In this document: positions 656 to 25,057 of the stretch, piece by piece
Layout: each line of letters opens with the position of its first letter
Numbering within the stretch: position 1 is the first letter of the stretch
Assembly (NCBI GenBank): GCA_003194525.1
Contig: NBIV01000446.1
Span: forward strand, 1 to 36,798
Length of the DNA: 36,798 bases
Direction of reading: 5' to 3'
DNA from: Gracilariopsis chorda
Taxonomy: Eukaryota; Rhodophyta; Florideophyceae; Gracilariales; Gracilariaceae
Program-made: the position numbers and the translations under genes
Notes under the pieces: generated by a model
Databases searched by the model: none
The model's input: the letters and a program-made list of their open reading frames with translations, nothing else
What the model was told of the DNA's origin: nothing

Positions 656-759
656 CTGTGTGTAAGGAAACGAAGAAAGAAGAACTTGTTTGTCAGCAGC
701 TGGCAAAAGGGAGGTAGAAAGGGGGTGGGGCGGAGGGATTGGTGAGCCATTGAACATAC
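656..759 (-). other. Spliceosomal intron in gene A, unit 1 (104 nt)
   Basis: Minus-strand reading: 5' site GTATGT, branch-like GCTGAC, pyrimidine tract TTCTTCTTTCTTCGTTTCC, 3' site CACACAG. Removing it keeps the two coding frames in phase (phase 1, new Tyr codon). Confidence 0.75.
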
Positions 760-886
760 AATAGTTTTGAACATAAGTCTGCACGCCCGTTACTTGAAGT
801 TGAGCAGGCTCACCATTGGGGTGGTCATTATGAGAGACCACTGGCGGCAGATTGCTCGGGCCTGGCGCCGTTTTGTTCGTCAGGTT

Positions 887-934
887 CTGCGGAGGGTGCT
901 GCGGAGGGTGCTGCGGAGGGTGCTGCGGAGTGTG
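887..934. repeat. 12-bp minisatellite in gene A, 4 units
   Basis: CTGCGGAGGGTG is repeated in tandem, the last unit degenerate. On the minus strand it encodes repeated His-Pro-Pro-Gln in the proper frame. Four units here, three in unit 2, about one plus degenerate remains in unit 3. Confidence 0.9.
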
Positions 935-1074
935 TGGAGGAGAGAGCGGCGAACGGAGCTGTGATGCAGAGGGTGCTGCAGCGGGAGCGGGAGCCGCGGC
1001 GGGAGCTGCGGGGGGTGCTTTGGAGAAGGCTGATTATTACGTGAACCGTGGGGGCCGGGGGGAGTCACGTTCAT

Positions 1075-1900
1075 TTGTGGGTGCCAAAGGTTGAGCCGTT
1101 ATTTCTGTTTTTGGGACGATGGAGGTGCAAGCGGAGTTGGTAATGGGAAGGGTCACAGGTTCTGCCTTTCTTCGTTTTCGAAGAGAGGTGGGGCGGCGAA
1201 ACAGAGCGGTGCCGACGCGCGCTCCCTTAAGTACGGAAGCTGGTGGTGCGAAGGTAGGTGGGCGCCACGTGCGGATGCTGTTTTTCGCGTTAGTTTGGGT
1301 GCAGTACCGGAGCACGTGGCGGGGGGTGCGCTGTCCGCGGCGCGTTTGTGCCGCGTCCAGAGAGCGTGCGTATAACGCGTGCGAACGGCTCGCTGGAGGG
1401 GGAGGGGGGGAGAGAGTGTCGGTGACGGGGTGTAACTTTTTGAATGGACGGGCGGGCTTTTCCCTCCTCCAACACTTATTTCTGCTGCGTATGTGACAGC
1501 GTCGGTTTCGTACCGGCACTGTCCTTGGCGCGGCTGCCCTCAAGGCGGCGTTTTGACCGCTTTTCGAGCCGGCTGAAAAAGAAAAATGTGATCGCTGCCA
1601 GCTGGCGGGAGAAAGTGACGGCGATTGAAATGCCAAACGGCTCTGTGTTCGATTTCACCTGTGTGTCAGCGCTTTTGGTCGGGTATTGCTGATTATCGAC
1701 AACGAAGGTAGCCGCATCGATCGCGCCTGTTCGGTGCATTCTCCCGGAAACATGTAGATACCACGGATTTTGCGCTTTCGGCAATCTCCCTCCGGCAGCC
1801 TTGCTTCGGCCGTACCGCGCTTGTGATGCACCTACGTAGAGATTACAAGACGCGCTGTCTCAAGATTCACGTGACACCCTGCGGTCGATCTCTCAACGCA
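1075..1900 (-). other. Upstream region of gene A with possible 5' exons, unit 1
   Basis: Minus-strand frames are open across much of this stretch: a 102-codon frame 1784-1476 starting MPKAQNPWYLHVSGRMHRTG, and a 199-codon frame 1636-1037. A good 3' splice-like site (pyrimidines then TTTTTCTTTTTCAG) lies near 1570, and GTGAAATC after CACACAG near 1658 could be a 5' site, but joining these in phase gives an early stop. I therefore cannot assign exons. The G-rich runs at 1393-1415 vary in length among all three units. The rest may be promoter or 5' UTR of gene A; no TATA box is obvious. Confidence 0.35.
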
Positions 1901-2322
1901 CAACGTGCCAGGTGGTGGGTTGAGAGGTAGTACCTTGCCACGCACCAACATCCACACCCGTCGCATTGCTCCCGTGACCGATATTCACCTGGCCATCATT
2001 GGTAACATGCCGAACGCTCCAACTCAGCGCGCTTCACGTACAATCCGTTTCCGCACCAAATGTACTCCGAAAATGGTAACACTTTCTACTTCAATGCAGA
2101 CACGTAGTCCTTCAAGGACGTATGGTTCCTTCCCAACTTGCTCTCGCATTCAAGCTACCTCGCCTTCATGTTTTGTGTCTGCTGTCGTTTCCGACACTAA
2201 AAGAGAGTGTCCGAGCCCTCGCCACTCACTCTCGGCCCTTCAAACATGTTAACATGTACTTGCTACTAGTGGCGAACTGTTCTAACCCACAATGAAGAAA
2301 TTAGAGAACGGAATGTTTACAT
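1901..2322. other. No recognisable gene, unit 1
   Basis: Short frames exist on both strands here, but they change between units 1 and 2 through single-base indels and match no family I know. The stretch separates the divergent upstream side of gene A from the 3' flank of gene B. Confidence 0.5.
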
Positions 2323-2346
2323 TAAACAGGAGTACGCTCCTGTTTA
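2323..2346. repeat. Inverted repeat, 10-bp arms, 3' of gene B, unit 1
   Basis: TAAACAGGAG and CTCCTGTTTA flank a 4-nt loop. It lies downstream of gene B on the minus strand, just after a long A/T homopolymer (2357-2368) and a CA-rich microsatellite (2376-2399). It could be a 3'-end RNA hairpin or a relic of a mobile-element end. Confidence 0.7.
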
Positions 2347-2375
2347 CTTTCAACGCAAAAAAAAAAAACAACTAT

Positions 2376-2399
2376 ACACACAAGACACACACACACACA
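2376..2399. repeat. CA-rich microsatellite, unit 1
   Basis: An interrupted CA tract (ACACACAAG then ACACACACACACA). The unit 2 counterpart near 19827-19849 is the same apart from the adjoining A-run. Confidence 0.8.
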
Positions 2400-2491
2400 T
2401 GAACAAAACATGCAAAAGTGAAAGTGTCAACACGGTTCTCCCCACTACAAGGACTCCAAGTACTCTAGATGCCTTTCTCTTCATATTAGCC

Positions 2492-3627
2492 TTAGTGAAG
2501 ATGTGACAACGAGCTGCAGGTATCTTCTGGCAGATTTTCGCGGCAGTGCGGACAGATCCACGTTCCGCTCGCCTTTGCACTTTCAAAGTCCCATTACAAC
2601 TCTCCGAAGCACGGTCGACACACCGCCTTCCGACACTTGCGATACGTATGCAGGTTCGCACAGAAGATATTTTCCGACTTCTGAGTGCGGGCGCAGACGC
2701 GACAGAAGCGCGACGGACCGCGCAGCAACGGAGAGAGAGGAGGTGAGCGTGGCTTCTTTCTTAACGGTGGAGTTAGTGGAATTGGCAGCGATGGTTGAGG
2801 CGCCAGATGCACTTGTAGGAGCGTTGGTGGCGCCTGAAGCGGTGCTTGAGATGGGGGGGCTAGTGGCACGGCGGCAGTCAGCGGTGACGGCGATGTGGTG
2901 CTGAGATAGGCGGTGGCGTGCAGGTGCGGAGTAGGCGGTGTGGTAGGAGGGGCATGCGAGAGTGCTCGCTCACAGCGACGAGACGTGATCGCCTCGAGTT
3001 CGGCCACAATATCCTCGTGCTGCGAAGACGGCTGCTTCTGGGGCGGCGAGGGCAAGAAAAAGTCCGGGAAAAAGCCATGCTCAGGAGCCCGAAGCGGTGT
3101 TTGAGGTGGGGGGTCGGGTGGCGCGGCGGCAGTTAGCGGTGACGGCGATGTGCGGCTGAGATGCGCAGTGGCGTGCAGGTGCGGAGTAGGCGGTGGGGGA
3201 GGAGGGGCAGGCGTACGGCAACGACACGCGATCCACACGATTGCGGCCACAGAATCTTTGTCCCGCGAAGGCGGCTGCCTTTCGGACGGCAGAGGGAAGA
3301 GAGAGGATACAGAAACGTCCTGCTCACGCACGAGGGCGAGGTCAGCCTCCGTGAACACAAGCCAAGGCAACCAAGCTTGCGTGGGCGGCATATCTAGAGG
3401 AAGAGTGTTGTCGGCGATGTGGGTGACGTTTAAGGCGGCGGGGCGGAATGGGACGGTGGAGTTGGCGGAGAGCGCGTGGGTGTGAGAGTGGGGAGGGGTA
3501 TGGGGAGCGATGTGGAGAGTTTCGGGCGGACGTCAAGCTGGCGACGAGCGTGCTTTAAGAAGGCAGTGCGAACGAGCGCGCGCCCGGTGCATTCAAGCCT
3601 CGTCTGGTGATCTAGCCCTCGTATCAT
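2492..3627 (-). pseudogene. Gene B: Pro-rich protein with C-terminal R1-type (zf-4CXXC_R1) zinc finger, unit 1
   Basis: The C-terminus has cysteines spaced C-x2-C-x10-C-x8-C-x4-C-x2-C (CRVCARTQ, FCANLHTYRKC, AVCRPCFGEL). A TAA follows (2594-2596), and the same frame resumes with GTWICPHCRENLPEDTC. Spacing and the W-x-C-P-x-C-R block match the zf-4CXXC_R1 finger of CDCA7-type chromatin proteins and their plant relatives, which act in the nucleus with HELLS/DDM1 remodellers. The last cysteine cluster is degenerate. The N-terminal part is Pro/Ser-rich and low complexity, with an internal duplication. The stop inside the finger is shared with unit 2. In unit 1 the frame also breaks near 3430 (extra G residues); in unit 2 that junction is open. 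Start chosen at the Met at 3627 because unit 2 reads from it through MPPTQAWLPWLVF. Family call good; functional status doubtful. Confidence 0.65.
2830..3300. repeat. Diverged internal tandem duplication in gene B, unit 1 (period about 255 bp)
   Basis: 2830-3060 and 3085-3300 align, sharing blocks such as GGCGTGCAGGTGCGGAGTAG and AGCGGTGACGGCGATGTG. On the minus strand both copies encode HLHATA(H/Y)LS(R/T)TSPSPLTAA with Pro-rich flanks, so the duplication kept the frame. Confidence 0.85.
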
Positions 3628-3816
3628 ATCATCTGTTTTTCGAGTTTTACAGCATCATGAATCCAGGCCATGCAGCGTGGAGCTCTCTGAGAAAGAGTCA
3701 CTCTCGGCCCAGTGGTAGTTCTGGTTTGACAGTGTCACTCTCATCCTGAGATTGTATTTGTCAGAAAAACTCGAGATCTTCCGCTGCCAAGGTCTGGCTC
3801 CACGACGCCCGTTCTT

Positions 3817-4017
3817 TCACTTCTGGACTAGAATAGCACCTCGACGCACGCAGATTTCAATCTTTTCATCACCAATGCCAAGCGTTTTGCAGAAAGCCCT
3901 GTACTCAGAAATGCCGCTGCGTTCATTCGGATTGTGCTTTGCTATTATTTCTAGAACGGGCAGGCTCGTGGTGGAAGTGAACGGCAGCCCTGAGGGCTGC
4001 TGTTCGCTTCTTGTCAC
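3817..4017 (-). CDS. Small ORF, 66 codons, unknown, unit 1
   Basis: The frame (SEYRAFCKTLGIGDEKIEIC, RRGAILVQK) has a mixed charged and hydrophobic composition, unlike the low-complexity frames around it. It is unchanged in unit 2, but that is weak evidence because the units are almost identical here. No family recognised. It may be a fragment of a larger decayed gene, since the frame is open further upstream on the minus strand. The rest of 3628-4281 holds nothing I can name. Confidence 0.25.
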   Translation of the reverse strand: MTRSEQQPSGLPFTSTTSLPVLEIIAKHNPNERSGISEYRAFCKTLGIGDEKIEICVRRGAILVQK

Positions 4018-4281
4018 GCAAACGATACATCCTCAAACGCGTCAGATTTGTGCCCTAATTTCCTGTTGACTGCCACCCACTTGTTCTCCGCTAAGCCATG
4101 CCAAGTGTTGATCAGTAAGGTCACCCAATCCTTCACTATGCCCCCGTTGCTTAGGGCCAAATGAAAAGTCTTGCGATTATTCGTGTGCTCTTCTTCCGCC
4201 GAGCAGGAAAGAATTCCAAATTCATTAGTTTACTTGTTGTTCCCGAAAGCTCTTATGCCACAGTAGGTGCGTAGAACCCGG

Positions 4282-4559
4282 AGACCACTCTTTTGGTATA
4301 GACTGCCGCCTTATCTCCACACGGACAATGGTTCCCAATTCATCTCGAAGTTTGCCATCACTTCTGCTGAGTCTCAGGACTGAAACATTTCTTCACCACC
4401 ACCTACCACCCCCTGACCGATTGGCATACGAAATGGTTCAACAGCTGCAGCTGTCAATATACACGGGTGCAACGCACCGTTTCTTTTGCTGCTATCCGCG
4501 CCCGTCAAAAACAGCTGTTGGACCCACGTGCGCGAAAAGGACTTCAGTCTTTGGCTTAA
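4282..4559 (+). mobile_element. Ty3/gypsy-type integrase core relic, unit 1
   Basis: The first frame gives WYRLPPYLHTDNGSQFISKF, ending in TGA at 4381. A second frame, overlapping by a few bases from 4380, continues with LKHFFTTTYHPLTDWHTKWF. These are two neighbouring landmarks of the retroviral/Ty3-gypsy integrase core: the TDNG-x-x-F block with the second catalytic Asp, and the TTYHPQTDGQTE block with the catalytic Glu. Here the Glu is Lys (DGQTE is DWHTK), so the enzyme would be dead even without the frameshift. No reverse transcriptase, LTR or primer-binding site was found, so this is an isolated fragment. It is not a virus-like intact element. Upstream to about 4070 the weak CQ-x-x-K-like context may belong to it but is not convincing. 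Confidence 0.75.
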
Positions 4560-4875
4560 ATCGTGATCATGAACTTTGGAACGGGTCTGTCTCCGGGCTC
4601 AAGAATAGAGCACTTCGGGCACCTCGATGGTTTCCTCGGTGGAATTGCGTATTCTGATCTTCTTGGTCCAAGGTTAGTCGCTAGGAGATTGCGATCAGGG
4701 CGCACCAAATTCGTGATGAGCCTGTTATGTCTTTTTTCATACGCGATGCAACAAGTCGAATTTATCTTATCCGCGGGTTGCTACAGAGGGACTGAGTTTG
4801 TTCTACGTTGTATTTTGTCAAAAGTGCGAAGCAAGGCATTATCCGTGGAAGGCGCTGTTATCGGATGAATCTTTA
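4560..4875. other. No recognisable gene, unit 1 (unit 2: 22005-22320)
   Basis: A plus-strand frame at 4563-4868 is open for 101 codons here but is broken twice in unit 2. It could be an eroded continuation of the retroelement C-terminus, but no motif supports this. Confidence 0.35.
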
Positions 4876-5932
4876 AAAGAGCTACAGATGTTTGAAGCGA
4901 GGAGATAGCTATACGGGCCTGTGTGGTGCGACTAGGCCAGCAGCGTCAGCGCAACTTCTAGCGAAACTACCCTTGATTCATCAATTCCTACACTTGATGC
5001 TCTGATGACGAGCGTTGTGATATTTTCGTCCACTGCAATCACCATTACGTCGGCTCTACTGGCTAGCCTCACCACTGCAGGGCTACCAAAGGCATTTGTC
5101 GTTATGAAGAGGACGTCAACATTCGCAGCCGTAGTAACTGAAGAATCTACGTCCGTCCGATTGTTGGTAACCAGATGAGGTGCTCGAGAAAGCTCAACAA
5201 GCACGCTGGACAAAACTGTATAGTCAAGCTCTTCCGCTGTTGACTTTGGTGAAACGCTGTCATCTGCTGGCAGCGGTTGAAGTGGTGGAGAATGCGCACA
5301 TGTTAGGCGGAACTCTCGAGTGACAAGATGGCTGATCACTGCTTCTGCACCAGAATTCGCATCAACTGCGTTTCCAGATCGGTAGTTTGCGAGTTGTACA
5401 TGATCTTCCTCAGAAAATTGGGAAACAACTGCTTAGCCTGACAGCTATGCTTTTCAAGGTGCTGGACTGAAAGCAACAAAGCCGCTGGGTCAGCGGTAGG
5501 CCCCCATGATGAAGCGCCTCCCTTCGATGACGCTATTTTGACAAATAATTGTCAAAATACGTTGTCGTGCGGTGCGTGATATCCAAGCGTAATGTAGCAC
5601 GAGCAGCATCTGTGGTGTATCTATGGCGAAGGATGGTCTCTTCGGGCCTGCCTGAATCAAGTACTATTCTGAGACGATTTGATGTAGATGAAACTGGGGC
5701 TGGGACCCATTTCAATACAAGCAAATCGATCAAGAGCGTATCCTTCCACGTATAACGCATTGGAGATTGGCCAATACATTAGTGCGCCTTTCAGAACATC
5801 CGAGTGAATAATGAGCGTGTCAGTGACGCGTAGGGGAAGTCTTGCAGCCGGAAGTGAATCGCTAGCGTACCCGCCGATGGCACCCCCAACACCTGTGGGG
5901 ACTATGAGCACTGTTGTATGCTGCGAACACAC
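4876..5932 (-). pseudogene. DUF3326 family protein relic, unit 1
   Basis: The order of segments follows the DUF3326 protein of cyanobacteria, algae and plants across nearly its whole length. They are TTVLIVPTGVGGAIGGYASD, YWPISNALYVEGYALDRFAC, then in another frame NRLRIVLDSGRPEETILRHR and DAARATLRLDI, then ASSWGPTADPAALLLS, and in a further frame NYRSGNAVDANSGAEAVISH, CAHSPPLQPLPADDSVSPKS and a Rossmann-like end (NVDVLFITTNAFGSP, VMVIAVDENIT). At least four frame changes are needed. Upstream of 5932 a Ser-rich segment in another frame (5862-6083) might be an old transit peptide, which would fit plastid targeting; this is inference. The function of the family is unknown to me. An early frame shift at the first junction (about 5725) is common to both units. 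Confidence 0.85.
5535..5558. repeat. Inverted repeat with 10-bp arms inside the DUF3326 relic, unit 1
   Basis: ATTTTGACAA and TTGTCAAAAT flank a 4-nt loop. The related proteins have the stretch between DLTDYVVTDAP and GASWG at this point, which is unrecognisable here, so the hairpin may mark an old insertion or deletion footprint. Confidence 0.8.
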
Positions 5933-7561
5933 AACCAGTGCATCTCGACTTCGGACAGAGAGGTGACGCGGGTACTGCTACAACGCTTGAACTTTTGTGG
6001 CTCGCTTGAACTGTGAGTTTGCAAAGCCCAGGAATGTGAGAAAAGCACACGAGTGAGGTAGGCTGGGGATTCTCTGGGAGCACATCTCGATAACGCTGGA
6101 TTCTGTGAAGGGCACGTCAGTCTAGTGGGGCCAGGGAGCAGAAGTGCAGCCGCCGGTACTTCTGAACACGCTTTTCAAGACTTTCGCTGTTTGAAACGCG
6201 ACGTAGACAGTGCCTACTTTCATACTCTATCTGTATCTTGTTTCTTCTGCATGTGTTCTGGTTCAGTGATAGAATTAAGGTTGATAGAATGTATTCTATT
6301 GACACTCTTTTGTCTTGAAACATGAGAAAGCTCTTTTACCCTGCTGCTAAAGGTTATTGTTCTCGTACAAGCGTTAATCGTAAGAAAACGGATCTTCTCC
6401 TCCAACTGGAGGTATGAAACTCCTCAACTTTTGCACCTTTTTCCCTACCTTCCAGCTAGGGATATCCGCCATTACGTTTGATTCCCACGTGCTGTATTGT
6501 TCTGTCTACAAATAGAAGAACACATCAAGGAAGGGACGAACAGGATACGAATTGCGAGCTCCTTAGGCGTCTTTGCTCTGATTTCATGAGGCGGTAGGAG
6601 CATATAAATCAGGGATTGACACTTACCTTTGCTACAAGACGAGCTTCATCCCTAGCTTGTAAAAATGGAATGATCGCTAAAAAGAATGTTCTTTTTCTCT
6701 TGTTGCAAATAAATCCCTACCAAAGAAAATTGAACATGAATAGAGAGTGGGGTTGGTCAAGTCAGGGTCAGATTGATTGAGACATGTGGAGGTTATTGGA
6801 CGGATGAAATCACACATCTTCGCTTAAATTTAAAAGTACTAATGCAAGTAGAAGCTGTATGACATGACCAGCGCGGTTCCGAACAAGAGTGGGCCGGCAG
6901 CAGGCCCGATTGAGCGGGGAACATTTCTGGCAATGTTGATAGGAGCGTGTCCGCCGTTGGGAGCCACCTCCTGTTGTACGGCTCAATGCGGCAGTGGTCT
7001 GTGCCGTGCCTCGATTGCCGTCAGCATGGACTTGCGCACGCAGAAGATGGAGTACACCCGACACAGGCGTAGGATTTAATCACGGGAGGGATTTAATGAA
7101 AATAGCGCTTCGGTGAGCGGCTCAGATGGAAAGCGATCGCGGAGGCATGCGCATTTCTCTACCTGCTTGCAGTACCAGGACCACCTGTAGAATACGATAA
7201 TCTAGATGATAGCAGTCATCCGAGACCCCAAACAAAGCAGAAACCTAAAACTGTGACGACGATAGGAGCAGTCCATCATCATCATAATCATGTTTACATA
7301 GCCGTCTAGCTTCTGCACTGGGTGACACCTTTATCTCTGCTGCCCCATTCGAGAAGAAATCTATCCTTTTGGTGCATAACGGCGGAAACGTTTCAACAAA
7401 TCGCATGAGTATCGTGAAAAATGTATGGTACCATTGATATCGATGTTTCCATGAGAGCAACGAGAGCACTTCAGTGGTCGTTTCGTTTCGAAACTTTCCA
7501 GGCGACTAGAGCATCATGGTGTGGTCGCCTCGACAAATCGGTCCCTACACGTAGTTGAGAA
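5933..7561. other. No recognisable gene, unit 1
   Basis: Frames of 60-85 codons occur on both strands (for example 6864-7079 plus and 7245-7469 minus), mostly the same in unit 2, but none matches a family I know. A CATATAAATCA sequence at 6600 resembles a TATA box. A CATCATCATCAT run lies at 7275. A plus frame of about 66 codons from 7110 to 7308 (KAIAEACAFLYLLAVPGPPV) has protein-like composition and may be an exon fragment. Confidence 0.45.
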
Positions 7562-7577
7562 ACGCCGCCGGCGGCGT
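7562..7577. promoter_or_regulatory. 16-bp GC-rich perfect palindrome, unit 1
   Basis: ACGCCGCCGGCGGCGT reads the same on both strands. It sits 32 bp from a second 16-bp perfect palindrome. Possible binding site for a dimeric protein; role unknown. Confidence 0.55.
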
Positions 7578-7609
7578 CATGAGAAGGAGCTAGCAATTCA
7601 CGGGTAGAT

Positions 7610-7625
7610 GTGTAGAATTCTACAC
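7610..7625. promoter_or_regulatory. 16-bp AT-rich perfect palindrome, unit 1
   Basis: GTGTAGAATTCTACAC is a perfect palindrome about 540 bp upstream of the MTR4 relic. A T-rich run follows at 7640-7660. Confidence 0.55.
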
Positions 7626-8168
7626 CCCTGTCTCGTAGGTTTTTTTTGTCTTTTTTTTTTAATTGAATCATTGCAACTGTTGTGCAGTGCAATAGCACTG
7701 GAGATATGACAGTGAGGCTACAGCCGCAGGGTTGATCCGCGGTTGATGTGAACAGACGTTCAGATCTTGCTAAGTTCCAAAAGTTTGAACCTGCAATTGT
7801 TGCGGCACTTCCTCGTTGCTTTTGTGAGCACTTTCTTGCGAAGCTGGAGGTTATTGTTATGTCCCTAGCATCCTGTGGGGGCCCTTTTCCGTACAGCGTA
7901 AGAGTTCCTCATACTGCAAGTAGTTGTAGAAGAGAGGAGTGCACGAGCACAAGCTCAACAAACTTAACTTTACGACATAGCTTGAGGTCCAACCACCTCG
8001 CGCTCGTGGTTACCGCCGAATCCTACTACTCAATTTATTCTACCCGTAGAGCATAAAGCGGTTGCCAGCCGATAGGGAAGCAAAGATGAGAATTCTGGGA
8101 AGAGCAATACTTCGCGTGGTGCAATCGGCATCCATTGATAACCTAAGAACACATCTTTCGCCCCAATT
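7626..8168. other. Upstream of the MTR4 relic, no gene recognised, unit 1 (unit 2: 25074-25615)
   Basis: A plus frame at 7748-8056 is open for 102 codons, but its first third is in another frame in unit 2 after one T is added near 25304. Its composition does not look conserved. The stretch probably held the promoter and 5' UTR of the MTR4-like gene when it was alive. Confidence 0.4.
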
Positions 8169-9377
8169 ATGTCAAATAAGAGAGATAGCACAGGTTTAAA
8201 CGGGGCCAATCCCCATGTTGTTTCGAAGAAACCAAGGCTTGCAGATAAGGACTCGAGCAATGATGTTCACATATGTGAAGAACAAGAGCCAGCATTGGTG
8301 TCTTCAAAACTTCCCTCTACTAATTCAATGCCACGTTGTATAACATCTCGTGTGGAATCGACGGGAACAACAGGATCGTCTGTTCTGCCCGACAAGCTTG
8401 GGCAATCTCCGCCAATGCTAAAAACATCATGTAAGCATGGCATTTTCCTTCCCGGAGACTGCAAAAAAGAATACAACATTTCTGAGCTTAAGATGCCAGA
8501 GAAACTAGCGAAGCAGTATTCCCTTTCACTGATTTCATTTGAGCGGGAAATTGTAAAAGGGGTAGAGCGGAACGAGAGCATTCTGGTTGCAGCACACACG
8601 AACGTATTGAAGGCAGCGATAACGGAATACGATGGCACGAAGAGACAACCAAAGGGTAAGGTATACGTCGCCAATCAAAGCCCTCAGCAATCAAAAATAT
8701 CGAGAACTTGAAGCAGAATTTAGTGATGTTAGATTGATGACCGGGGATGCAACGATAACAAGAATACCTCTTGTCTTGCAATGACTACCAAAACTCTCAG
8801 AAGCATGCTCTACAGAGTAATTTAAGTTTTACGTGAGGTCTCTTGAGTTATTTTTGATGCAGTTCACTATATGCGGGACAAAAAAAGAGGGGTCATGTGG
8901 GAGGAATCAATCATCCTTGTTCCGCAAACTGTCAGATTTGTACTCCTGAGCGCTACGATTCCAAACGCACGTGAATACTCGGAATAGATTGGCCATTTGA
9001 ATATCAAACGAACATAGCGCGAGCATCTCAAAATGCAGTAGCATCTCTGCACGACGAGGATCAGGATTTGCTCCAGACAACACCCATTTTTCAACTGCTG
9101 GATCTCGGAATTGACATCCAATCTATTTCAGTAAGGGCTATTGAAATGTCTTTTCGCGACAGAGACTTTTGAGATGGGACTAAACGTGCCAGCCAAAACA
9201 GTGCTGTTTACCAGTATCAGGCCGCTTGACGGGTTACAGTTCAGAAAGCCTGCCGGAGGCGAATACATGCAAATGAGTGGCCGGGTCGATCGTCGAGGTA
9301 TTGATAAAGAGGAATCAGCAGTGCATTGTCCAAGGTTGGAAGAAGAGACCATTGCCGAAGTGGTAGTGTACAGGTGA
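8169..9377 (+). pseudogene. MTR4/SKI2-type RNA helicase relic, unit 1
   Basis: MTR4 is the nuclear exosome helicase. The N-terminus has a basic SKKPRL, then CKHGIFLPG, KLAKQYSLSLISFEREIV and NESILVAAHT, as before the Walker A loop. The GKT of that loop is gone (NVLKAA). A frame change then gives [20 protein letters not shown] and [11 protein letters not shown] (8662-8760); another gives [12 protein letters not shown]. The Walker B box is [12 protein letters not shown] (8856-8867), DEVH having lost its catalytic Glu. [12 protein letters not shown] follows with a TAG stop (8985-8987). About 120 residues are then missing before NAVASLHDEDQDLLQ. A second short deletion precedes [20 protein letters not shown], and motif VI is [10 protein letters not shown] instead of QMSGRAGRRG. 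The start at ATG 8169 fits the family N-terminus. Family identity is certain; the gene is dead. Confidence 0.92.
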
Positions 9378-9590
9378 GGTGCAAGCCGGGCAGCAAAGCT
9401 ATCATTGACATTGTTGAGGACAATGGATCGTGTCCCATACACTGTGACGCTACCCAACGTGTAATACATGCAAACATGCGTCGCTGCCTGTAATATATTG
9501 TTTCGAGAAAATGAATTTACGTGCACCTTTTTTCGCTGAACTAATGATTATGTATAGCGCTTTATATCCAGCAATAGAGATTGTTCCTGT

Positions 9591-9779
9591 TTGAAGTGCG
9601 TGACCAACTGTCGCGTGACCATCCCATTCCAAAGATTTCATCAATTCGGTAGGGCCACTGCGGCCAATGAGCTTGTTGCCGGGCGAGTCGCCGCAGAATT
9701 TCACGACTTATACGGCCGAGTGTTCGAGGCAAAGATAGTTGTGCCGCATTCGGAATGGGTGCCTCCGTCATGTAGCAAT
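9591..9779 (+). pseudogene. Possible distal MTR4 fragment (GRVA segment), unit 1
   Basis: The plus frame reads FQRFHQFGRATAANELVAGR then VAAEFHD, resembling the MTR4/SKI2 segment beyond the helicase core, R-x-LG-x-A-(S/T)-x-x-x-V-x-x-KGRVACEIS. It lies 0.2 kb downstream of the helicase relic on the same strand, consistent with a large deletion of the arch region. The match is short, so this is tentative. The frame runs on without a break into the start of the RRM relic, so two unrelated fragments may be fused here. Confidence 0.45.
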
Positions 9780-10158
9780 GCCTGGCGTGCCACAAAGAAA
9801 TTCTTCATCGTAGTTTACCCACCACATGTCGCGAAGCAGACGTTTCGATCTGCATGCCCACTTTACTCGCTTCGGTGATATCGCAGAATGTCAGGTCATG
9901 TACGACCATCAGACTGATAACTGGAGGGGGTTTGGCTTTGTCACGTTTACATCCGAACTAACATTCCACAAAGTGGTGGATGTAGACCACGAAATCATGC
10001 ATAAACACGTCAACGTAAAGCGTGCGGAGCCGAAACAAGCGCTTGACGCAAGTCTTGGACGCGAGACAGCAGCTGCTCTACTGCCCTTTTCTTCTACTCA
10101 TTCATCCACCTCTTCATTACATGTATCCTCTCAAAAGCAACAGAGTCATATGTCATGA
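9780..10158 (+). pseudogene. RRM (RNA-binding) protein relic, unit 1
   Basis: An RRM of the hnRNP/Musashi/DAZAP type is split over two frames. The first supplies RATKKFFIVVYPPHVAKQTF, with the RNP2-like beta strand. A shift near 9850 leads to the second: HFTRFGDIAECQVMYDHQTD, then the RNP1 octamer RGFGFVTF (9925-9948), then HEIMHKHVNVKRAEPK, which matches the family's final strand (x-V-x-VKRA-x-PK). After the domain comes a Ser/Thr/Gln-rich tail to the stop at 10156-10158. The family binds mRNA and acts in splicing or translation control. RNP2 is altered (the family has K-x-F-VGGLP). The shift is shared with unit 2, so it is ancestral. Confidence 0.88.
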
Positions 10159-11393
10159 AGTTCGTAGAATTTGGAATCAAATTTTGCTGCTTCTATCCCG
10201 TATGGGTCCTAAGCATTCGCGATTCCAAATACATCTTCTATCCCGCATGCTATTTCGCCTCTTGCTCACACAACTTTCCAATGGATTTCGCCTTGCTTTG
10301 GCGTCCTGTCATGGAAGGCGGGCTCCAGCTGGACCTCTGTTCAAGCCTTCTCGTGTTGCGGTTCTGGCAAGCTGTCAATTCGTTATCACGTCAGTCAAGT
10401 GCCGTTCTAAGTCGGACAACGTCCCAAACATCTCAAGCTGGTATGAGATTCTTCACACTAGGAATTTCGTACTCTCCAGACCTGCTCAATGCCCATACGA
10501 CGAGGTTTACGCAGTTTCCGCTCCACTCAACCCTCCTGCACTTAATCTTACCAACTTCATACCTAGCACAAGAACAGAACGAAAGTTTCATCCATACTCA
10601 TCTATGGAACGATTTGAGGGTTCGAATCGGTAATTATACCGTGCAGTGTATATTTCCTTTTTCAGCCTCGGGACTCAGTGCCCTCTTTTCGGCTGCACAG
10701 AGTTTTGTTGGGCGGGATCACTCTCTTCAATTCTTCTCGTACTTTTGTTCTTTCTATAGAAACATACTATGTTATAACTTGTAGTTAGTGCAGCGGTTTG
10801 TGTGAAGTGGCGATGTAGTTTGGAAATTTTTGCAGCTTTGGTACATTAGCGAGATCAGGTGCCTTTCGTAAACAATTTTTGCTCCGTACCTGTCATCATG
10901 TTCAGCAAGAACAAATTGTACATCTTAAGTGAAGTCTAGCACAACTATGATAGAAGCATGGGACCGGTGGAAAGCAAATTGAGAAACAACGTGAGGGAGG
11001 TTGAGGAGTCTAACATAACTTCTGCCACAGCAATACGCAGCTGTTCGTTTTTGCAATGTGCGTTCAATGACTCCCAGTACTTTTGAGGTTACGAAAAGAT
11101 CGGGTTCCAATACTACGGATGCACCAACTAGAAAGACAGAAATGCGGGATCACCCTCTTTCCCTTTACGAATCGTGAAAGAGACAGCTACCGCTCTCAGT
11201 AAAATGCAGCGTGGCATGGAGCTGCAATGAGGATATCGGATTTGCAGCTTCTACCCCTCTGTGCGTAAATTTGTTCACAAACCCCAAATCATAACAATAT
11301 TAGTAAGAGTGATGATCGAGTACGAGAACAAACTATTATTAAACCAGGCTTACAATACAACAAAGTCCTCAAAAGCTTCAAACCCCTTCAAAG
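10159..11393. other. No recognisable gene; possible short introns, unit 1
   Basis: Plus frames of about 200 codons (10022-10633 and 10155-10784) are open, but they shift between units and may be 3' sequence of the RRM gene. A possible 36-nt intron (10630-10665, GTAATT to TATTTCCTTTTTCAG) ends the first of them. On the minus strand, TTTCTGTCTTTCTAG near 11135-11121 resembles a 3' splice site. It is followed by a 61-codon frame (11110-10925; PDLFVTSKVLGVIERTLQKR) of protein-like composition that I cannot assign. An ORF at 11261-11491 on the plus strand is probably chance. Confidence 0.4.
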
Positions 11394-11731
11394 CTATGAG
11401 GAGAACCCATCCTTATGTCGTTGATTTAGCGCGTCAGCAGCGGCTAACATATCATATGCATCGTCGGCCATTTTTTCTGCTCGTCAGGTAGTTCTTTCCA
11501 TGTTTTTTCCGTGTTCATGAATACGGACATGAGTTTCTGAGAACAGATCCTACGCACTCTGTACAGTTCTTGCCTTTTACTTGACGTGAGAAGACTCCGA
11601 ATCATTCTTAGAGTTCGCCGCGCTGAAACTGAAAGCAGCGGCTGCGACATAACAAACGATGTATCGAAAAGCCTTGAAGGAGGAAGCGACACCAGCCTCA
11701 AAGACAGCCTAATCCTTCTTTCTCTTCGCAT
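11394..11731 (-). pseudogene. Unassigned ORF, weak HMG-box-like end, unit 1
   Basis: A 95-codon frame (11731-11444) ends SVFMNTEKTWKELPDEQKKW. A shift of frame at that point gives a second ending, MADDAYDMLAAADALNQRHK, to a stop at 11394-11396. WKELPDEQKKW followed by an Ala-rich helix is weakly like helices 2 and 3 of an HMG box (WKELS-x-EEK-x-x-Y), but the first helix is missing, so this is a guess. It directly follows gene C on the same strand and overlaps its end by 23 bases, so it may be a downstream exon of gene C. Confidence 0.3.
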
Positions 11732-12619
11732 GAGTGGGTTTGATATATCGCAGATGCGCTAACAATTCTTCCAAGTTACCGGTTGGACCAGGAATGTTAT
11801 ATTCCGCGACAGGAGAACAAACCAATAGAGCACCAGGCTCCGGGACCTTTCCCTTCGGTTGTTTGGCGGGACTCTTCACTTCATGCCCCTTATCAAAAGA
11901 GTTTCGATGCGCAGCTTCCTTCGTACGAGTACATGGTGTGGGCATGTTCGGAGTATCTGCCAGAATGGGTGAGAGTAGTGAAAGATTGGAGGCGATCTCA
12001 AGCTGTTCATCCGCGGAAGCGCGTTCTGGCTTTCGATTTAAACGTTGATATTCGTGTTTCAGGCCCATTTGCTGTTACACGAGGCGGTAACGTTATTCCT
12101 TTGTGATCCGCAAAAAAGGGCTGCCAAAGACGCTCGCATGGCTTCAATGGCCACCTTTTGATGTTCGGGAGAGCAACCAAGCTCAACATCTGTGATGGGG
12201 GACGTGGGCGGCGATTAAGTCCGAAGCGGGGGTGCAACCGGTCTTGGAGGCGGTTGTGGCGAGTGTGGTTTTGGCCGGTCGGTATCAACATAATCAGAGT
12301 GAGAATCATCTGAACCTTCGGAAGGACCGTATGTAATATGAATGATGTGTTTGTGATGAGCAGAATACTGAACCGGACGCGCTTCAACAATGGGCTCGTC
12401 GTGTGGCTCAGCGTGGTTTGGAGGAACGAGTCGTTTTGTTTCATTGAGAACTGAAGTCATTTGATTCATGATTTGATCCATTTGGCTGCGAAGGCGGTCC
12501 CTCCTTTGCAAGGCGTTGGGATTTGAAGGGTCTATAGCAAGCATGTCACATTTGAGATTTTCCCATTGTTGACGAAGATGTTCGCAACGCTCGAAAGCGG
12601 CATTGACGGCGTCGGACAT
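11709..12619 (-). CDS. Gene C: coiled-coil protein of unknown function, frame interrupted, unit 1
   Basis: Start at ATG 12619 (context GTCGCCATGT). The first about 65 residues look like an amphipathic helix or coiled coil (FERCEHLRQQWENLKCDMLA, DRLRSQMDQIMNQMTSVL). An acidic and Pro-rich linker follows (SEGSDDSHSDYVDTDRPKP), ending at a TAA near 12215. A different frame then gives EHQKVAI, and unit 2 shows DVELGCSPEHQKVAIEAMRA. A third frame, 12068-11709, ends with YNIPGPTGNLEELLAHLRYI and a basic KRKKD tail. The three pieces have one protein-like character and are collinear. They are either exons, with TCACACAG near 12190 a possible acceptor, or one frameshifted gene. One base fewer in the C5 run at 12228-12232 would join pieces 1 and 2. 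No family recognised. Confidence 0.45.
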
Positions 12620-12935
12620 GGCGACGACGGTAAGTTGCGTTTGGTGTGGAGAGAGGGGGCAGGAGGGAGAAAAAAGGAAGAGGGAGTGCGCTTGTAGAGT
12701 GACGAGAACAGAAGTGAAGGTCAGTTCCAGAAAGCGGTTCCGGGTCGCGCGGACGAGGTTGCTGTGCTAGCGCGCTCGTCAGCTGTGCATCTTCTTCCAT
12801 ACAACGCGCGTGTGACGTGGCCTGAGGTGCGGTGCAGGCTACTGTTGCGATGCCACCACGTTTCCCGCCACGTGGACAGGTGGGCGCGGTTGCACAACAA
12901 AATCTCAGCACGTCGCGCTCAACAAAAGAATCTTC

Positions 12936-13300
12936 TTGGAAGATGCATCGAACGCGCAGCTCACCAGCAGCACGCCGTCCGCTGCGCTAGCATCACCACC
13001 GCCGTCTTCACCTTTACCTACCCAGAGCGTCATGGGCAAATCTGAATTCGGTGACCCTCCGTGTCTCTATTCCTCGCCACACCCTCAGCCTGATGAGGCA
13101 CAGACGGAGTTCTACTCCGCGCTCGCCGCCTTCCTTACCGCCGTCTTCACAACCGCCTGTGCCACCGCCCTCTCCCTCGAAATGCGCTGTAGCCACACTT
13201 GCACAAGAGCGACCCTAGTCCCTCCCGCAATATGCGCACTGGGCCGCGACCGAATCGTCATCGATCCGGATCCGACAACACGTCAACAAGTGAACTAAAT
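12936..13300 (+). CDS. Gene D: Ser/Pro-rich ORF, unknown, unit 1
   Basis: A 120-codon plus frame (AQLTSSTPSAALASPPPSSP, then MGKSEFGDPPCLYSSP) lies head to head with gene C, about 0.3 kb from its start. Composition is low complexity and codon bias is C-rich, so it may be only an open frame in skewed sequence. It could also be the 5' part of the gene whose 3' part is the PGM2 relic just downstream, but its frame ends at 13298 and no splice site stands out. Confidence 0.3.
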
Positions 13301-13337
13301 GCTCTCCCACTGCCTATGCTCCCCCGCGGAGCCATCC

Positions 13338-14839
13338 CGTCTGCCCGTCGCCCTCGACCAAACCCACCGTCTTCGATTTGGTACAGAGGGCTTACACGCA
13401 GCCGTCGGGCCGTCTCAATTGTCTAGTCCTTTCTGCGGCGCAGGCGCTGGCAAGGATCTCCAATCCTATTTCGCGCGTCTTCGTCGTCAGTCATGACACC
13501 AAAACGGATTCCACAAAGTTTGCGGTGCTCATTGCAGACGTTTTTAGGATCCATGGAGCGCAAAAACAGCTTTTCTCCAGACCGTTTCCCACCCCATGTG
13601 TCGCCTTGGCAGTACGAAGCCTTCAAGCTGCGCTGGGTTTGTGCGTTACAGCCAGTCATAACCCGTCACAGGACAACTGGCTCAAAGTTTTCTGGAGCGA
13701 CGGCATTCAAATTCGACCTGATGTGTAGAGAAACCTGTCAAACTCTGCTCACGCCCTTGAAAAACAAGTATGCCATATCTGACCATGATCTACCACCAGT
13801 ACCAGATCCCCATCACCAAATTACTGAACAGTACTTTTCGGCGGTTACCACTGCTTTATATAAGCTTCTGCTTGATGTCAGTCCTCCACGCATGGTATAA
13901 ACCGCTTGACACGGCATCGGCACCTCGTTAATCGCCGAAATCTTTCGACGCTTTCAACTTCCACGTTCGCACCGGTTGAGGAACAATGTACACCAGACCC
14001 AGCCTTCCCAACGCTACCGTTTCCCAATCCAGAGGAAAAAGATGCTCTGGACCTTGGCGTTGAAACTTGAAAACGATGCAATGCTCCAATTGTGGTTGCG
14101 AATGATCCTGATGCCGGTCTCTAGGGGCTGCCAAAATTTCAGCCCATGGGGCGCTGTGTATATTCACCGGTTATGAAATCGCACTGTTGCTGGCTGATCA
14201 CTTGACCAAACACATAAACGATGATCTTACGCAATGTGCTGTCGTTGCCAGAACAGCTTCTTTCAATGTTCTCGCCTCTATAGGCAAAACGAAAGGTTTC
14301 GTCTTCAGGGAAGCATTCACGGGACTCACGTAGATCAACAAGGTAACCTTGGACCTTGAAGAAGAGAGAAAGATGCCCATTTTGGCCAATGAAGAAGCAT
14401 TCGGGTATAATATCACAAGAAACATCGTTTGTGATAAAGACAGTTTTTTGCTGTGGCCATGATGGCCCAGCTGATAGCCATTATATACGAAAAGGAGAAT
14501 GCGATAGGCGAGCGCATACAAGAGTTGCTTATGGAGTACGGTATTAATTTGTCCAGCAACGGTTATTACCGCTTGACTGACTCTTGAACTAAGGCATCAG
14601 AAATATTCGACTCGGCCAGGGAAAATGGACTACCCAGTAAACTCTGCAGTGCTGTAGTGAATTCTGTCCGGGATCTGACGTATGGAAGGGAGACAGCTGA
14701 ACCAAGTAGCAAAGCTCTCCTACCAGCAGATACCTCTTCACAATCCTTGAATTTTAGGTGCTCGAAGAAAAACAGCGATGACGAAGATTGTACTCTCATT
14801 ATTCATTTGCGCGGAAGCGGCACTGGTAAGTTCACTTAG
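13338..14839 (+). pseudogene. Phosphoglucomutase-2/phosphopentomutase-type (alpha-D-phosphohexomutase) relic, unit 1
   Basis: The enzyme moves phosphate between C1 and C6 of hexoses (or C1 and C5 of pentoses). Landmarks in order: LRFGTEGLHAAVGP (start domain); VFVVSHDTKTDSTKFAVLIA; the active-site loop TASHNPSQDN with its phosphoserine (13648-13677); then a stop. In another frame follow EEQCTPDPAFPTLPFPNPEE and the metal-binding loop NDPDAG (14101-14115; family DPDADR, third Asp lost). In further frames come IFTGYEIALLLADHLT, GFVFREAFTGLT, ANEEAFGYNI, MAQLIAIIYEKENAIGERIQ, SVRDLTYGRE and a C-terminal phosphate-binding loop (LRGSGTG; family RTSGTEPK). The relic covers most of the family length. 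An extra base near 13470 separates the first two blocks in this unit only. Confidence 0.93.
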
Positions 14840-15330
14840 ATCTTCACGGGTTTGATTTCAGTGCACCTGGAATTGATCTGGCCAGGACCCCTGCAACGTA
14901 TCATTGTTGAGAAAGGAATGGAAATTTTCTCCCCAGCATAGCGGAAGATGCTGTCAGTAGCTTTTCCTCAAGCGGAAACTGACGAGACATCACGTGTTTT
15001 GTTGTTTCTCCATCGCACAGAGCCGAAAATCAACACTACACAGAGCTCCGGACTACGAACGAAGAGCACAAAAGTAGATCAGCTGAGCGATTCTTGAATC
15101 ATGCCGTACGAGAGGCGGTACGTCAGGTATTGCGCCCATTAGCAAACCATGTTTTACAAAGATGATAGCAAACCATGTTTTACAAAGATGACCCGTGTTG
15201 GTCAAAATGGATCCGTCAACGAGACGGAGAGAGGCGCACAACAGATGAATGTAAGTAGTTCGCACGTACTGGCATCAACAGTTCACTGTATCAGGGTGTC
15301 GTCGTAGCCAAGTTGAGAAAGGAAGAATCT
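14840..15330. other. No gene recognised; 3' flank of PGM2 relic, unit 1 (unit 2: 32298-32761)
   Basis: The stretch starts with a GTAAGT-to-TTTCAG segment (14826-14861) that could be a 36-nt intron at the end of the PGM2 frame. From about 15030 the two units begin to differ by real substitutions. Minus frames at 15265-15053 are open but altered in unit 2. Confidence 0.4.
15140..15191. repeat. 26-bp perfect tandem duplication, unit 1 only
   Basis: A 26-bp segment beginning TAGCAAACCATG (15140-15165) is repeated at 15166-15191. Unit 2 has it once (near 32598), so the duplication is variant-specific. Confidence 0.95.
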
Positions 15331-16092
15331 TTACTCAGTGGTTGTCAACTCCCCTATTTCTGCCAGCTTCTTTATCAGGCTTGTGAGCTGTGAATTAAAC
15401 TCATCAGCAGATGTCCTAATCTTTGCAAAAACCGTTGGAGGTGCATTGTCTGCAAACCCAGTGGCACTCATCCTCTTTCCTAGGCAGTTGGAGTTTTTAC
15501 ATTGACAGACTGCTTTTCAATCCTCTTCAATTCCTTTTCAAAATCGATCATATCAGGCATGGGTATGACGCCCCCGAGATTGTTGCAATGTAAAAATGAA
15601 GGGCATTGCCGCCGAAATCTGTTTCAGTAGCGGATCCTCCCACACCGTCAATGAGTTTAATCGTCAGTTTCTCAGAATTATATTTGGTCAGAAAAGTAGC
15701 ATCCCCTTCTTGGCATGTACATCCGACGCTGGGACGGCGTCAGTTCGAATTGAGAGATAAAATTGTCGACCATGGTCCACTTGATACTCTGCTCTAGCAT
15801 TTCGTATGTAGCGAAACAGAAATTGCATTCTTTCAAAGCGCTCTATAGCCTCTTGCTCAATGCTTCCGCCAGGTGGACATTACGCAATAATTAGTGCCTG
15901 CTTTGGGCTGCCTTCTCACGTGAAGCGATGCCAGATTTCGTTTGTGACATGTAGCATCAACGGATGTACAAAACTAAGACATGTATCCATTACGTAGTGT
16001 TGTTCAGTGCTGGGGTACAGCCCAACAGCGGAAGAGGGCAGAAAAGAAACGGTAGATGGAGGAATGCACTCGTACTGGGATTTAGTGGACAA
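15331..16092 (-). pseudogene. Valyl-tRNA synthetase C-terminal relic, unit 1
   Basis: ValRS charges tRNA-Val. The relic covers the anticodon-binding domain and C-terminal coiled coil. In minus-strand order: EQHYVMDTCLSFVHPLMLHV, then TNEIWHRFT (family LHPFMPFVTEELWQR), ALIIA (family APWP region), GGSIEQEAIERFERMQFLFR, YIRNARAEYQVDHGRQF (family AIRNIRAEYNV), a stretch with stops, PMPDMIDFEKELKRIEKQ (family PLAGLIDVEKEIARLEKQL), FADNAPPTVFAKIRTSADEF (family F-V-x-KAPAEVVAK-x-R) and KKLAEIG, ending at 15331-15333. The catalytic Rossmann domain is absent. There are at least three frame changes and stops, one of them (TGA after HRFT) absent in unit 2. The two collinear ends make the family identity firm. 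Confidence 0.88.
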
Positions 16093-17177
16093 GAAGGAGA
16101 TGTTAGATTACAAAAAGGGTTAAACGGCGTTATGTGGTGAGTTAGTGCATGGAAATCGAAACTTTGTACAGTTTGGAGAACTTACAATCATCTTTCTTAA
16201 GCTCTGACTGGAACTCATCCTCACAAAGGGAGGAAGTGAACCATCCACTGAAGGCAGACAATTGCTTGCAAGGAACTTTGAGCAAAACATGTCAGTTAAA
16301 TCTCTTCGTTGACGTTGTGGATACCGTATTAAGAGTGAACCTTTAACTTTTTGGATTTGTGAGTAGTGCTGCACGTGGTGCGTGAGGGTGATGGAATTAG
16401 ATTTTAGAGTAGGCAACGAGTACATCGGACGACAAACTTGTGACATGGACGTAAACTTTGGGTGAACATGCGCAGCACATGGTGTGATGTGGGCGGTTAG
16501 TTTGGTAGCGCAAACTGCACGGAAGAGTCTTACAAGGGTGAAGCGCGAGAGACGTTCGAGCGCGGACTAACAGCGTCGACTTGTGCTTGAGAGCTAGACA
16601 GCTGCAACATGAAGCGATACCGTCCCACTTGGCACGACAGCAGGCTGAAATTCTGCCTACAAAAGCGGGCTGGGGAGGCAAAAGCGGTTGGAAGCAAATT
16701 CACAACTCGCGGCGCGGTCTCTAGGAGGGACGGAAATGAGACTGTATGTGCAAGCAGTGCGCGGTACGCTGCTGCGTACAAGGGTAGCGCTTATGTATTT
16801 GATAATTTGTATGGCACACAAGCTGTGATGCAATGGCTAAAGGGTTAGACGTCTACCTTTCGTCGCCGGAGAGGGCAACTGCGGACAAGCGCTGTAATCC
16901 GCCGTGACGGCCTGTGACCGCCGCGGCGCTGAAGCGCCAATGAGAGGCGCGCATGGCGGCCGCATCGCACTCGCGTCACGACGCGCCGCGCACATGCGCA
17001 CATGCGCAGCCGGCGAGCAGCGACCGCAGCAACGCAGCGACCGCAGCAACAGAGCAGCCCTTCACAGGTGCTCGCCATCGCAGATATCCAAAGCTTCATG
17101 CTCAGCCCCAAAAATCAACACCCAAAAATGAAAAGTACCCAAACAACCTCCCGCTTCCGCCCCTTTGAGCGCAGCTG
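16093..17177. other. No recognisable gene; GC-rich 3' flank of gene A, unit 1
   Basis: A minus frame at 16446-16120 (108 codons) lies upstream of the ValRS relic. A GTAAGT near 16189 and an acceptor AAATCCCAG near 16083 could remove about 105 nt and join it in phase to the relic, but its sequence is not like ValRS. A plus frame at 16609-16848 is open here and replaced by another in unit 2. Sequence from about 16850 to 17060 is GC-rich, with CGCACATGCGCACATGCGCA and a doubled GCGACCGCAGCAAC. Confidence 0.4.
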
Positions 17178-18115
17178 TTATCTACCCTCCGTACGTCTCA
17201 CGAGAGCTACCGATCGCTTGCCTTGACGCGCAGTTCCAGGCATCACAGAAATGCGCGTAGATCTGCCGGGCATGGAGCTCTGACACGTCGGCTCCGCCTT
17301 GCGGTTCGCCTCGCGTTCCTCCTTGGCGCGTTCCTTGTCGCGAATGCGCGTGTCAATCATCTCTGCCAGCATCGCAAAGACATCCGGCATGGGCTCACCC
17401 GCCTTCCTCATAGCGTTCAAAACGCGACAACGATTGATCACATTGTACAACTTCTGCTTGCGGCGCAAGCTGTACGATGTGATCAATTGTTGTTGCGTAT
17501 GGTAGCCGATCGACGCCTTAAACCTCGGCGCGCCTGAAAACTTAAACGTCTTTCCGACTGTGCGGCACCTCTCCAGCAGTCTGTAGTCATTCACACGACG
17601 ACTGTCTCCTTTGCAATGATCGCGCAGCGGCACACCGTCCGGAGCACCGGTTCCATGCATGATCCATAAATACATGTCTACCACAGCCTCCCAGTCATTC
17701 AGATAGGCTTCGTCCACATCCGAGGACGTGGAGCCGTGGCTGCGGGTACGCACGCTATGGAATCAATCTTCGCCACCCTCAAACGCGCTGGGGTTGGATG
17801 TGGGCATTGTGCGTGCGGACAGACGGCTGCGTTTGCAGGGACGTTCCGTCATTGGCGAAGACCGAGGTAGAGAGGGCACGGACGCCAACGTGCCGAGGGC
17901 CTGTGGAGGCCGCTGTTCAGGGGCGTATTGGAGGGTAGGAGCACGCTGAGACGTGCGGCCGGCCGGATGCACAGGCGCCACGGGTGGTATGGGGTTAACT
18001 GTCGCGGGGGTAGGGGCTCCATTGCCCGACTGTGGGCAGGACGTGACTCGAGTTAAGCCCTCTCCGTCAGCAAAGGTTAGATTGACGGTGCAGCTGGAGT
18101 GAAAGTTGAAGGTGT

Positions 18116-18219
18116 CTGTGTGTAAGGAAACGAAGAAAGAAGAACTTGTTTGTCAGCAGCTGGCAAAAGGGAGGTAGAAAGGGGGTGGGGCGGAGGGATT
18201 GGTGAGCCATTGAACATAC
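18116..18219 (-). other. Spliceosomal intron in gene A, unit 2 (104 nt)
   Basis: It has the same GTATGT, GCTGAC and CACACAG signals as in unit 1. Without splicing the upstream frame hits a stop at 18077, shortly after the intron; with splicing it continues into the FADGEGL frame. This rescue of frame is the main evidence for the intron. Confidence 0.8.
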
Positions 18220-25025: not shown

Positions 25026-25057
25026 CATGAGAAGGAGCTAGCAATTCACGGGTAGAT

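Follow-up and report, generated by a model that had tools for sequence, protein, structure and literature searches.

How did relics of several conserved genes come to lie together, on both strands, within one large tandem repeat? The question is raised by a stretch of 36,798 nucleotides from the red alga Gracilariopsis chorda (assembly GCA_003194525.1, contig NBIV01000446.1, positions 1 to 36,798; hereafter the window, or C446). The assembly holds 91.3 Mb in 1,081 contigs, and we name other loci by contig (C14, C80 and so on). The window comprises two copies of a unit that repeats every ~17.45 kb, followed by the beginning of a third. We conclude, with high confidence, that this unit is a chimeric segmental duplication that was tandemly amplified, and that its genes have been dead from capture on and have open originals elsewhere in the genome.

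Five places in the same genome match ~96% of the unit (blastn identity 74-88%), intergenic DNA and the introns of a GRIM-19 gene included. The tiling is nearly gap-free and covers 16,673 of 17,449 unit positions (95.6%). Identity to the loci on C14, C80, C108 and C353 is 87.0% over ~15,000 aligned columns (15,081 when small overlaps of neighbouring pieces are counted; the C20 piece is left out), and the divergence of these four pieces is 11-16% throughout. By contrast, no DNA match to the unit was found at five other loci resembling valyl-tRNA synthetase (ValRS) or phosphoglucomutase (PGM) genes (L043, L044, L045, L034 and L035; the PGM loci on C158 and C102 stood outside this test). Given that identity over so many columns, and its absence at these five loci, chance likeness is excluded. 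One of the five, the ValRS-like locus L044 (C91:189921-194732), contains four TGA, four TAG and two TAA codons within its match and is either a pseudogene or an intron-bearing gene. Neighbouring pieces of the unit match different places and meet at sharp joints, in the order C353, C14, C80, C108 and again C353, with a C20 insert, which is the structure of a mosaic segmental duplication. In window coordinates, the first copy is composed as follows:

42-2155, plus strand: C353-type segment, matching C353:37601-39838 (79% by blastn, 86% ungapped), with part of a decayed open reading frame (ORF) that has no Pfam domain
2156-3588, minus strand: C20 insert with a zf-4CXXC_R1-type zinc-finger relic, aligned over 2162-3590 to C20:231931-233196 (83% and 74%)
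3589-4488, plus strand: C353-type segment continued, matching C353:39829-41042, gapped
4488-4795, plus strand: rhomboid C-terminal relic from C14, 29% of the coding sequence (CDS)
4750-6150, minus strand: DUF3326 relic, 100% of the source CDS, C14:519068-520396
6218-7181, minus strand: GRIM-19 relic with introns, matching C80:30714-31709 (81.5% by blastn, 85.2% ungapped)
7180-9317, plus strand: partial MTR4 relic (CDS 8169-9317) preceded by its upstream DNA, matching C80:33274-35831
9318-9666, unstranded: 349-bp stretch at the C80-C108 joint, source not found
9667-10966, plus strand: RRM relic with flanking DNA, 77% of the source CDS, C108:66181-64827 reversed
10965-12900, unstranded: C108 stretch between RRM and PGM, from C108:64055 downward, reversed, after a gap of ~770 bp
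12900-15010, plus strand: PGM relic that retains 91% of the open frame on C108
15200-15997, minus strand: relic of the ValRS C terminus, with 22% of the open frame on C108 (reversed; the match stops at C108:58906)
15998-16363, unstranded: 366-bp stretch at the C108-C353 joint, source not found
16364-17460, plus strand: C353-type segment, matching C353:36444-37578, with which the unit closes on itself

The C353 matches (16364-17460, 42-2155 and 3589-4488) all fall within C353:36444-41042, and the whole C14 segment (4488-6192) corresponds to C14:518985-520693, reversed. After the GRIM-19 match, the C80 piece aligns in two parts (7180-9001 to C80:33274-35103, and 8998-9317 to C80:35470-35831), and the C108 piece aligns in three blocks (9667-10966, 10965-12002 and 11973-15997), running from C108:66181 down to 58906, reversed. 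The unit lacks ~1.56 kb of C80 with the SURF6 gene, which sits between GRIM-19 and MTR4 (joint 7180/7181), as well as 366 bp of MTR4 (joint 8998/9001). On C108, the source of the stretch between RRM and PGM contains an open frame (L046:3-626) whose Pfam matches are all weak. The C20 insert contains a local tandem duplication of ~230 bp (2829-3057 and 3084-3300) and is flanked by a 10-bp direct repeat that is single in C353.

The original prediction, made from the letters of the sequence alone, had described seven unrelated families in no functional order and had proposed searching for intact source genes elsewhere in the genome. Open originals were found at four of the source places. On C14, these are DUF3326 (443 amino acids, the one full-length stop-free frame found) and rhomboid (347 amino acids); on C80, MTR4 (1,052 amino acids, the one MTR4 found, with GRIM-19 nearby); on C20, a zinc-finger frame of 323 amino acids; and on C108, RRM (440 amino acids) and, close together, the PGM and ValRS frames (769 and 997 codons between stops). 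Instead of seven unrelated families, the unit holds five genomic pieces: the RRM, PGM and ValRS relics represent one locus (C108), and GRIM-19 (minus) and MTR4 (plus) represent another (C80). Their order and strand, which had seemed arbitrary, are those of the source loci.

The captured material is DNA and not complementary DNA (cDNA), because intergenic DNA and the GRIM-19 introns were kept and neighbouring genes moved together. Intergenic DNA aligns to its source as well as coding DNA does. In the interval between the two GRIM-19 exon hits, 241 of 285 positions align and 15 more are gapped; read by eye, this interval holds introns with GT-AG ends. The earlier suggestion of captured loci or cDNAs that later decayed, with introns as the test, is borne out as to captured DNA and its decay, and the retained introns and intergenic DNA rule out the cDNA alternative. 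Processed cDNAs of several genes, inserted singly and then decayed, could also have left unrelated relics on both strands. However, such retrocopies would have lost their introns and would carry one gene per copy, and we found neither feature: introns are retained, and neighbours are preserved in their original orientation. Retrocopies are refuted for the C14, C80 and C108 pieces, and we consider them extremely unlikely as an explanation of the unit.

Copies of the unit share their joints. In all 19 unit loci compared, which fall into three divergence classes, single alignments span the C353/C14 and C14/C80 joints, on both sides of the DUF3326 piece; that part therefore formed once and was amplified afterwards. 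In the divergent family, the C14/C80 and SURF6-gap joints are spanned in 10 of 10 loci (the locus-by-locus comparison covered these three joints), and the 366-bp C108/C353 joint is whole in all 40 scored matches, at 96-100% identity. A lone unit fragment on a 54.9-kb contig (L066, C327:33500-40500) carries unit positions 15906-16810 at ~96.5% identity, across the C108/C353 joint. By type, the 19 loci divide into 8 like the window (the window included), 5 at 97-99% and 6 at ~93%, and these families interleave, with C416 carrying one 97% and one 94% copy. Beyond the first copy, the array is represented by:

17450-34900 of the window, unstranded: second unit copy, 98.9% identical to copy 1 over the first 16.6 kb, falling to 90.7% in the final 0.85 kb
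34355-36798 of the window, unstranded: end of copy 2 and start of the third copy, which belongs to another subfamily, ~92-94% identical to the first copies
C130:189500-217722 (loci L051, L064, L040 and L041): edge of the array, with gypsy-type and copia-type elements

Copies 1 and 2 follow each other head to tail at a spacing of 17,421-17,460. Counting loci with the RRM relic, we obtained at least 44 long units on 36 contigs (57 match rows merged; 61 of 61 candidates scored); such counts are lower bounds from a broken assembly and add up loci across contigs, not within one proven array. Unit length varies by family: DUF3326 relics are 13.86 kb apart on C508 (11133 and 24993) and 16.48 kb apart on C768 (3096 and 19579), compared with 17.45 kb in the window. 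With a kilobase-scale head-to-tail unit, high identity between copies and tens of copies, the array is a macrosatellite. Collapsed or chimeric contigs might be suspected where array contigs of known length, except C130, measure 13-45 kb and break inside the repeat. Yet the same joints recur in 19 of 19 loci whose classes are up to ~7% apart, several contigs hold two successive units, and C130 has array copies beside other sequence; an assembly artefact is almost certainly not the explanation.

To identify the relics, all six read-through frames of one unit were scanned with Pfam profiles (E≤0.01). This recovered DUF3326 (E values of 1.3e-26 and 3e-42, split over two frames), DEAD/MTR4 (5.6e-7), RRM_1 (2e-7), PGM (5e-22 for PGM_PMM_I and 1.4e-9 for PGM_PMM_II) and ValRS (Anticodon_1, 7e-5; at 23.2 bits just under the cut-off of 25.1), the last confirmed by alignment to the C108 ValRS gene (70% identical over 217 codons). 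The R1-type zinc finger gave a weak match within 2.15-3.6 kb (E of 0.025, 15.2 bits against a cut-off of 22.7), which is backed by alignment at 83% and 74% to the open C20 frame (this ORF itself was not run against Pfam). Two relics are absent from the original prediction, GRIM-19 (9e-6) and a rhomboid C terminus (0.007, under the cut-off, aligned to an open source ORF). Six of the seven predicted families (DUF3326, MTR4, RRM, PGM, ValRS and the zinc finger) are present. The seventh, a gypsy integrase, was not found: the scans returned no integrase or pol domain of a gypsy element in the unit at E≤0.01 and no gypsy integrase at E≤5 in 15.9-17.0 and 2.15-4.6 kb, and a broken gypsy-type element lies at the array edge on C130, outside the unit. 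Inside the C353-type duplicon there is also an ORF family without a Pfam domain (368 and 375 amino acids; window 34636-35742, minus strand, and L056:3300-4427, minus strand), which is open in some unit copies and has 25 homologues, including one in Agarophyton chilense at 63%.

All six relics aligned to source frames carry in-register stops and frame-breaking insertions or deletions: 2 and 6, respectively, in DUF3326, 1 and 2 in rhomboid, 5 and 8 in MTR4, 3 and 4 in RRM, 8 and 8 in PGM, and 3 and 4 in ValRS. The predicted decay of conserved genes is confirmed in this way, as is the near-complete length of two relics, with 100% of the source CDS covered in DUF3326 and 91% of the open frame in PGM.

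The relics decayed neutrally and were dead from capture on, because codon positions changed near-equally and outgroups agree with the source at 94 sites and with the relic at 3, both proteins pooled. Differences at codon positions 1, 2 and 3 number 319 of 2,553, 265 of 2,553 and 364 of 2,549, compared with 953 of 6,990 in noncoding DNA (this count treats GRIM-19 exons as noncoding, omits the C20 piece and two small C353 pieces (3589-4011), and includes overlaps of some tens of columns between pieces). We counted 250 silent, 517 missense and 24 nonsense changes, where 243.4, 621.1 and 28.7 are expected at the noncoding rate (spectrum from the C80, C108 and C353 pieces, including GRIM-19 exons and the C353 ORF); missense and nonsense changes together occur at 0.83 of the noncoding rate (0.77-0.89). 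The 94 amino acid differences in DUF3326, polarised with 36 outgroups, favoured the source 42 times, the relic once and neither three times, with 48 uninformative; for 82 differences in MTR4 and 14 outgroups, the figures were 52, 2, 1 and 27, and with the three closest proteins only, 64:3 for the source. The host MTR4 is 83% identical to those of Agarophyton chilense and Gracilaria domingensis, 71% to that of Chondrus crispus and 93% to its closest homologue; the best named match of the host DUF3326 protein is from Gracilaria domingensis (66%). These identities suggest that the host belongs to the Gracilariales. DUF3326 changes common to one representative of each of the three unit families also show a flat codon pattern (49/427, 33/427 and 44/428), and decay therefore began before these families split.

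The same counts bear on acquisition from another alga or a hybrid parent, in which the divergence would be older than the capture. The C14, C80, C108 and C353 pieces are alike in divergence (11-16%), as they would be in a foreign block, but if working genes had diverged, most differences would be expected at silent sites, whereas here codon positions changed near-equally, missense and nonsense changes approach the noncoding rate and outgroups put the changes on the relic. We regard a foreign origin as very improbable.

Across six relics and 2,133 codons, the ratio of silent to amino-acid-changing rates is 1.24 (bootstrap 1.07-1.42). On the assumption of neutral silent sites in the source genes, the source branch measures ~0.24 of the unit branch, such that the unit changed ~4 times faster (2.4-13), which is a lead and not a proof; silent-site constraint in the source genes would yield the same signal. 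The noncoding comparison (0.83) agrees with a faster unit branch. Small gaps in the unit relative to the source are deletion-biased, with 97 deletions (613 bp) and 57 insertions (213 bp). Decay driven by methylation or resembling repeat-induced point mutation was considered and rejected: C>T change from source to unit shows no clear excess at CpG (0.091, compared with 0.085 at CpC, 0.073 at CpT and 0.066 at CpA), and the observed/expected CpG of the unit is 0.96-1.03.

Could a gene-capturing transposon of Pack-MULE or Helitron type have taken the fragments, the array being its tandem copies? MULE insertions produce target duplications of 9-11 bp and have terminal inverted repeats, and Helitrons have ends of their own. 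A 10-bp direct repeat does occur at the edges of the C20 insert, and only there, and the C353-type part is multi-copy. Against this, no transposase, helicase-Rep or integrase domain was found in the unit at E≤0.01, the search returned no inverted repeats of ≥300 bp (short terminal repeats were not searched systematically), and beyond the array contigs the matches listed include only fragments of the unit (C327, C480 and C423). Capture by a transposon is accordingly improbable, although less so than the other rivals considered above. Transposable elements do adjoin or interrupt the array on C130 (217,722 bases, read from 189.5 kb on). Array sequence begins there at 192,650, at unit position ~7094, next to the broken gypsy-type element, which extends over several frames (aspartyl protease, RVT_1 and RNase H). 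A copia-type element (RVT_2), whose two terminal repeats of 290 bp are 98.6% identical, interrupts the first unit at unit position ~10,170, and past this element the array runs to the contig end.

A shorter tandem repeat of 5.61 kb occurs on C459 (L055, C459:14000-22500), where the identity of neighbouring copies reaches 99.76% across 2.9 kb; on C668, C533 and C519, ORF hits recur at approximately this spacing. It corresponds to the 17.45-kb unit minus 5037-16878 (joint 5037/16878, with a 6-bp overlap) and is 99.3% identical to its parent. We rejected the idea that the 5.6-kb repeats, on C459 and other contigs, are an ancestral core that later took in gene DNA: 550 bp of the C14 piece persist in them, and they arose by internal deletion.

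Several observations weigh against a tandemly amplified chimera of dead genes, or limit it. The ratio of missense and nonsense changes varies by gene, from 0.63 in rhomboid, 0.75 in PGM and 0.78 in DUF3326 to 0.83 in MTR4, 0.97 in RRM and 1.07 in ValRS. The assembly breaks inside the array. For two joints, of 349 and 366 bp, the searches revealed no source, and further pieces or old deletions are possible there. For 9318-9666, the search used only the 60-amino-acid translation of 9308-9487, and all 56 matches (57 of 57 candidates scored) are on array contigs; for 15998-16363, a DNA search found none with 40 of 49 candidates scored, so a source could be missed. Rearranged relatives of the C353 part, which is multi-copy, occur on C423 and C480, which weakens C353 as a single-copy donor; it is the nearest relative found, not a proven donor. 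On C423, the C353-type relatives in the stretch read lack the C20 insert; on C480, some pieces have it and others do not. The C20 piece is more divergent (74-83% by blastn) and may be older. As to the first of the two joints, 9308-9487 is an open frame of 60 amino acids.

The model that we favour for the chimeric duplication is that copies of DNA pieces from the same genome (a C353-type duplicon with its C20 insert, C14, C80 and C108) became linked end to end, and that the chimera was then amplified head to tail, its similarity being upheld by unequal exchange or gene conversion. Joining may have occurred by break repair (end joining or template switching), possibly via a chimeric circle, and tandem spread by unequal exchange or rolling-circle copying. 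The likely order is that a C353-type duplicon spread, the C20 piece entered one of its copies, and this copy was joined to the C14, C80 and C108 pieces; tandem growth and then the family split would have followed, and deletion variants such as the 5.6-kb unit would have arisen and been amplified in turn. The similar divergence of the C14, C80, C108 and C353 pieces (11-16%) favours a short interval for the large joins, which may have been made in one event or several. We read the array as probable satellite-like passenger DNA without gene function. A bolder version, possible but on balance unlikely, is that one repair event closed the fragments into a ring and that this circle integrated, giving an array of hundreds of kilobases that mutates several-fold faster than the source loci and possibly lies on a supernumerary or sex-linked chromosome. 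If true, this would provide a dated natural experiment on mutation rate in satellite chromatin.

The origins of satellites are rarely traceable, the source often being gone. Here, nearly every large piece of a 17-kb unit has a match in the same genome, most with open genes, which allows direct measurement of intron retention, neutral decay, the sharing of joints and the pace of change in array DNA relative to single-copy DNA. A ~4 times faster unit lineage, as estimated here, is testable in sister species.

Pack-MULEs and gene-capturing Helitrons also unite fragments of several genes, drawn from different loci and with introns kept, as seen here. The present unit differs in having no transposition genes or element termini found (short terminal repeats were not systematically searched) and in containing pieces that represent up to ~7 kb of source, with neighbouring genes. 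In B chromosomes, amplified fragments are pseudogenised. B chromosomes assembled from A-chromosome fragments (PMC5704207) resemble the array in that fragments of standard chromosomes were gathered and amplified; unlike them, the array gives no sign of a supernumerary chromosome in the one genome analysed. Chimeric circular DNA can reintegrate (PMC9527254), and a reintegrated ring of joined fragments would yield a tandem unit whose last piece meets the first; the piece order here is compatible with such a possible circle. The macrosatellites D4Z4 and DXZ4 share the kilobase-scale unit, head-to-tail array and many copies, but their units measure 3.3 kb and 3 kb (PMC13138017, PMC3218863). The unit here is 17.45 kb and forms a mosaic that matches five places in the genome and includes relics of eight or more genes. 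The original prediction knew of no described macrosatellite with such content, and none appears among the literature matches listed, some of which come from larger result sets; mosaic segmental duplications are nonetheless a close known kind. In the mosaic and core-duplicon model, duplication blocks consist of pieces from different places around a core. Like these duplications (PMC3040729, PMC6920530), the unit joins pieces of different origin, around a repeatedly duplicated C353-type piece; unlike them, its mosaic is fixed as one unit and tandemly amplified, and the genes tested are dead. In this macrosatellite, then, the repeated unit is a mosaic segmental duplication, a structure whose ingredients are known and whose combination is unusual.

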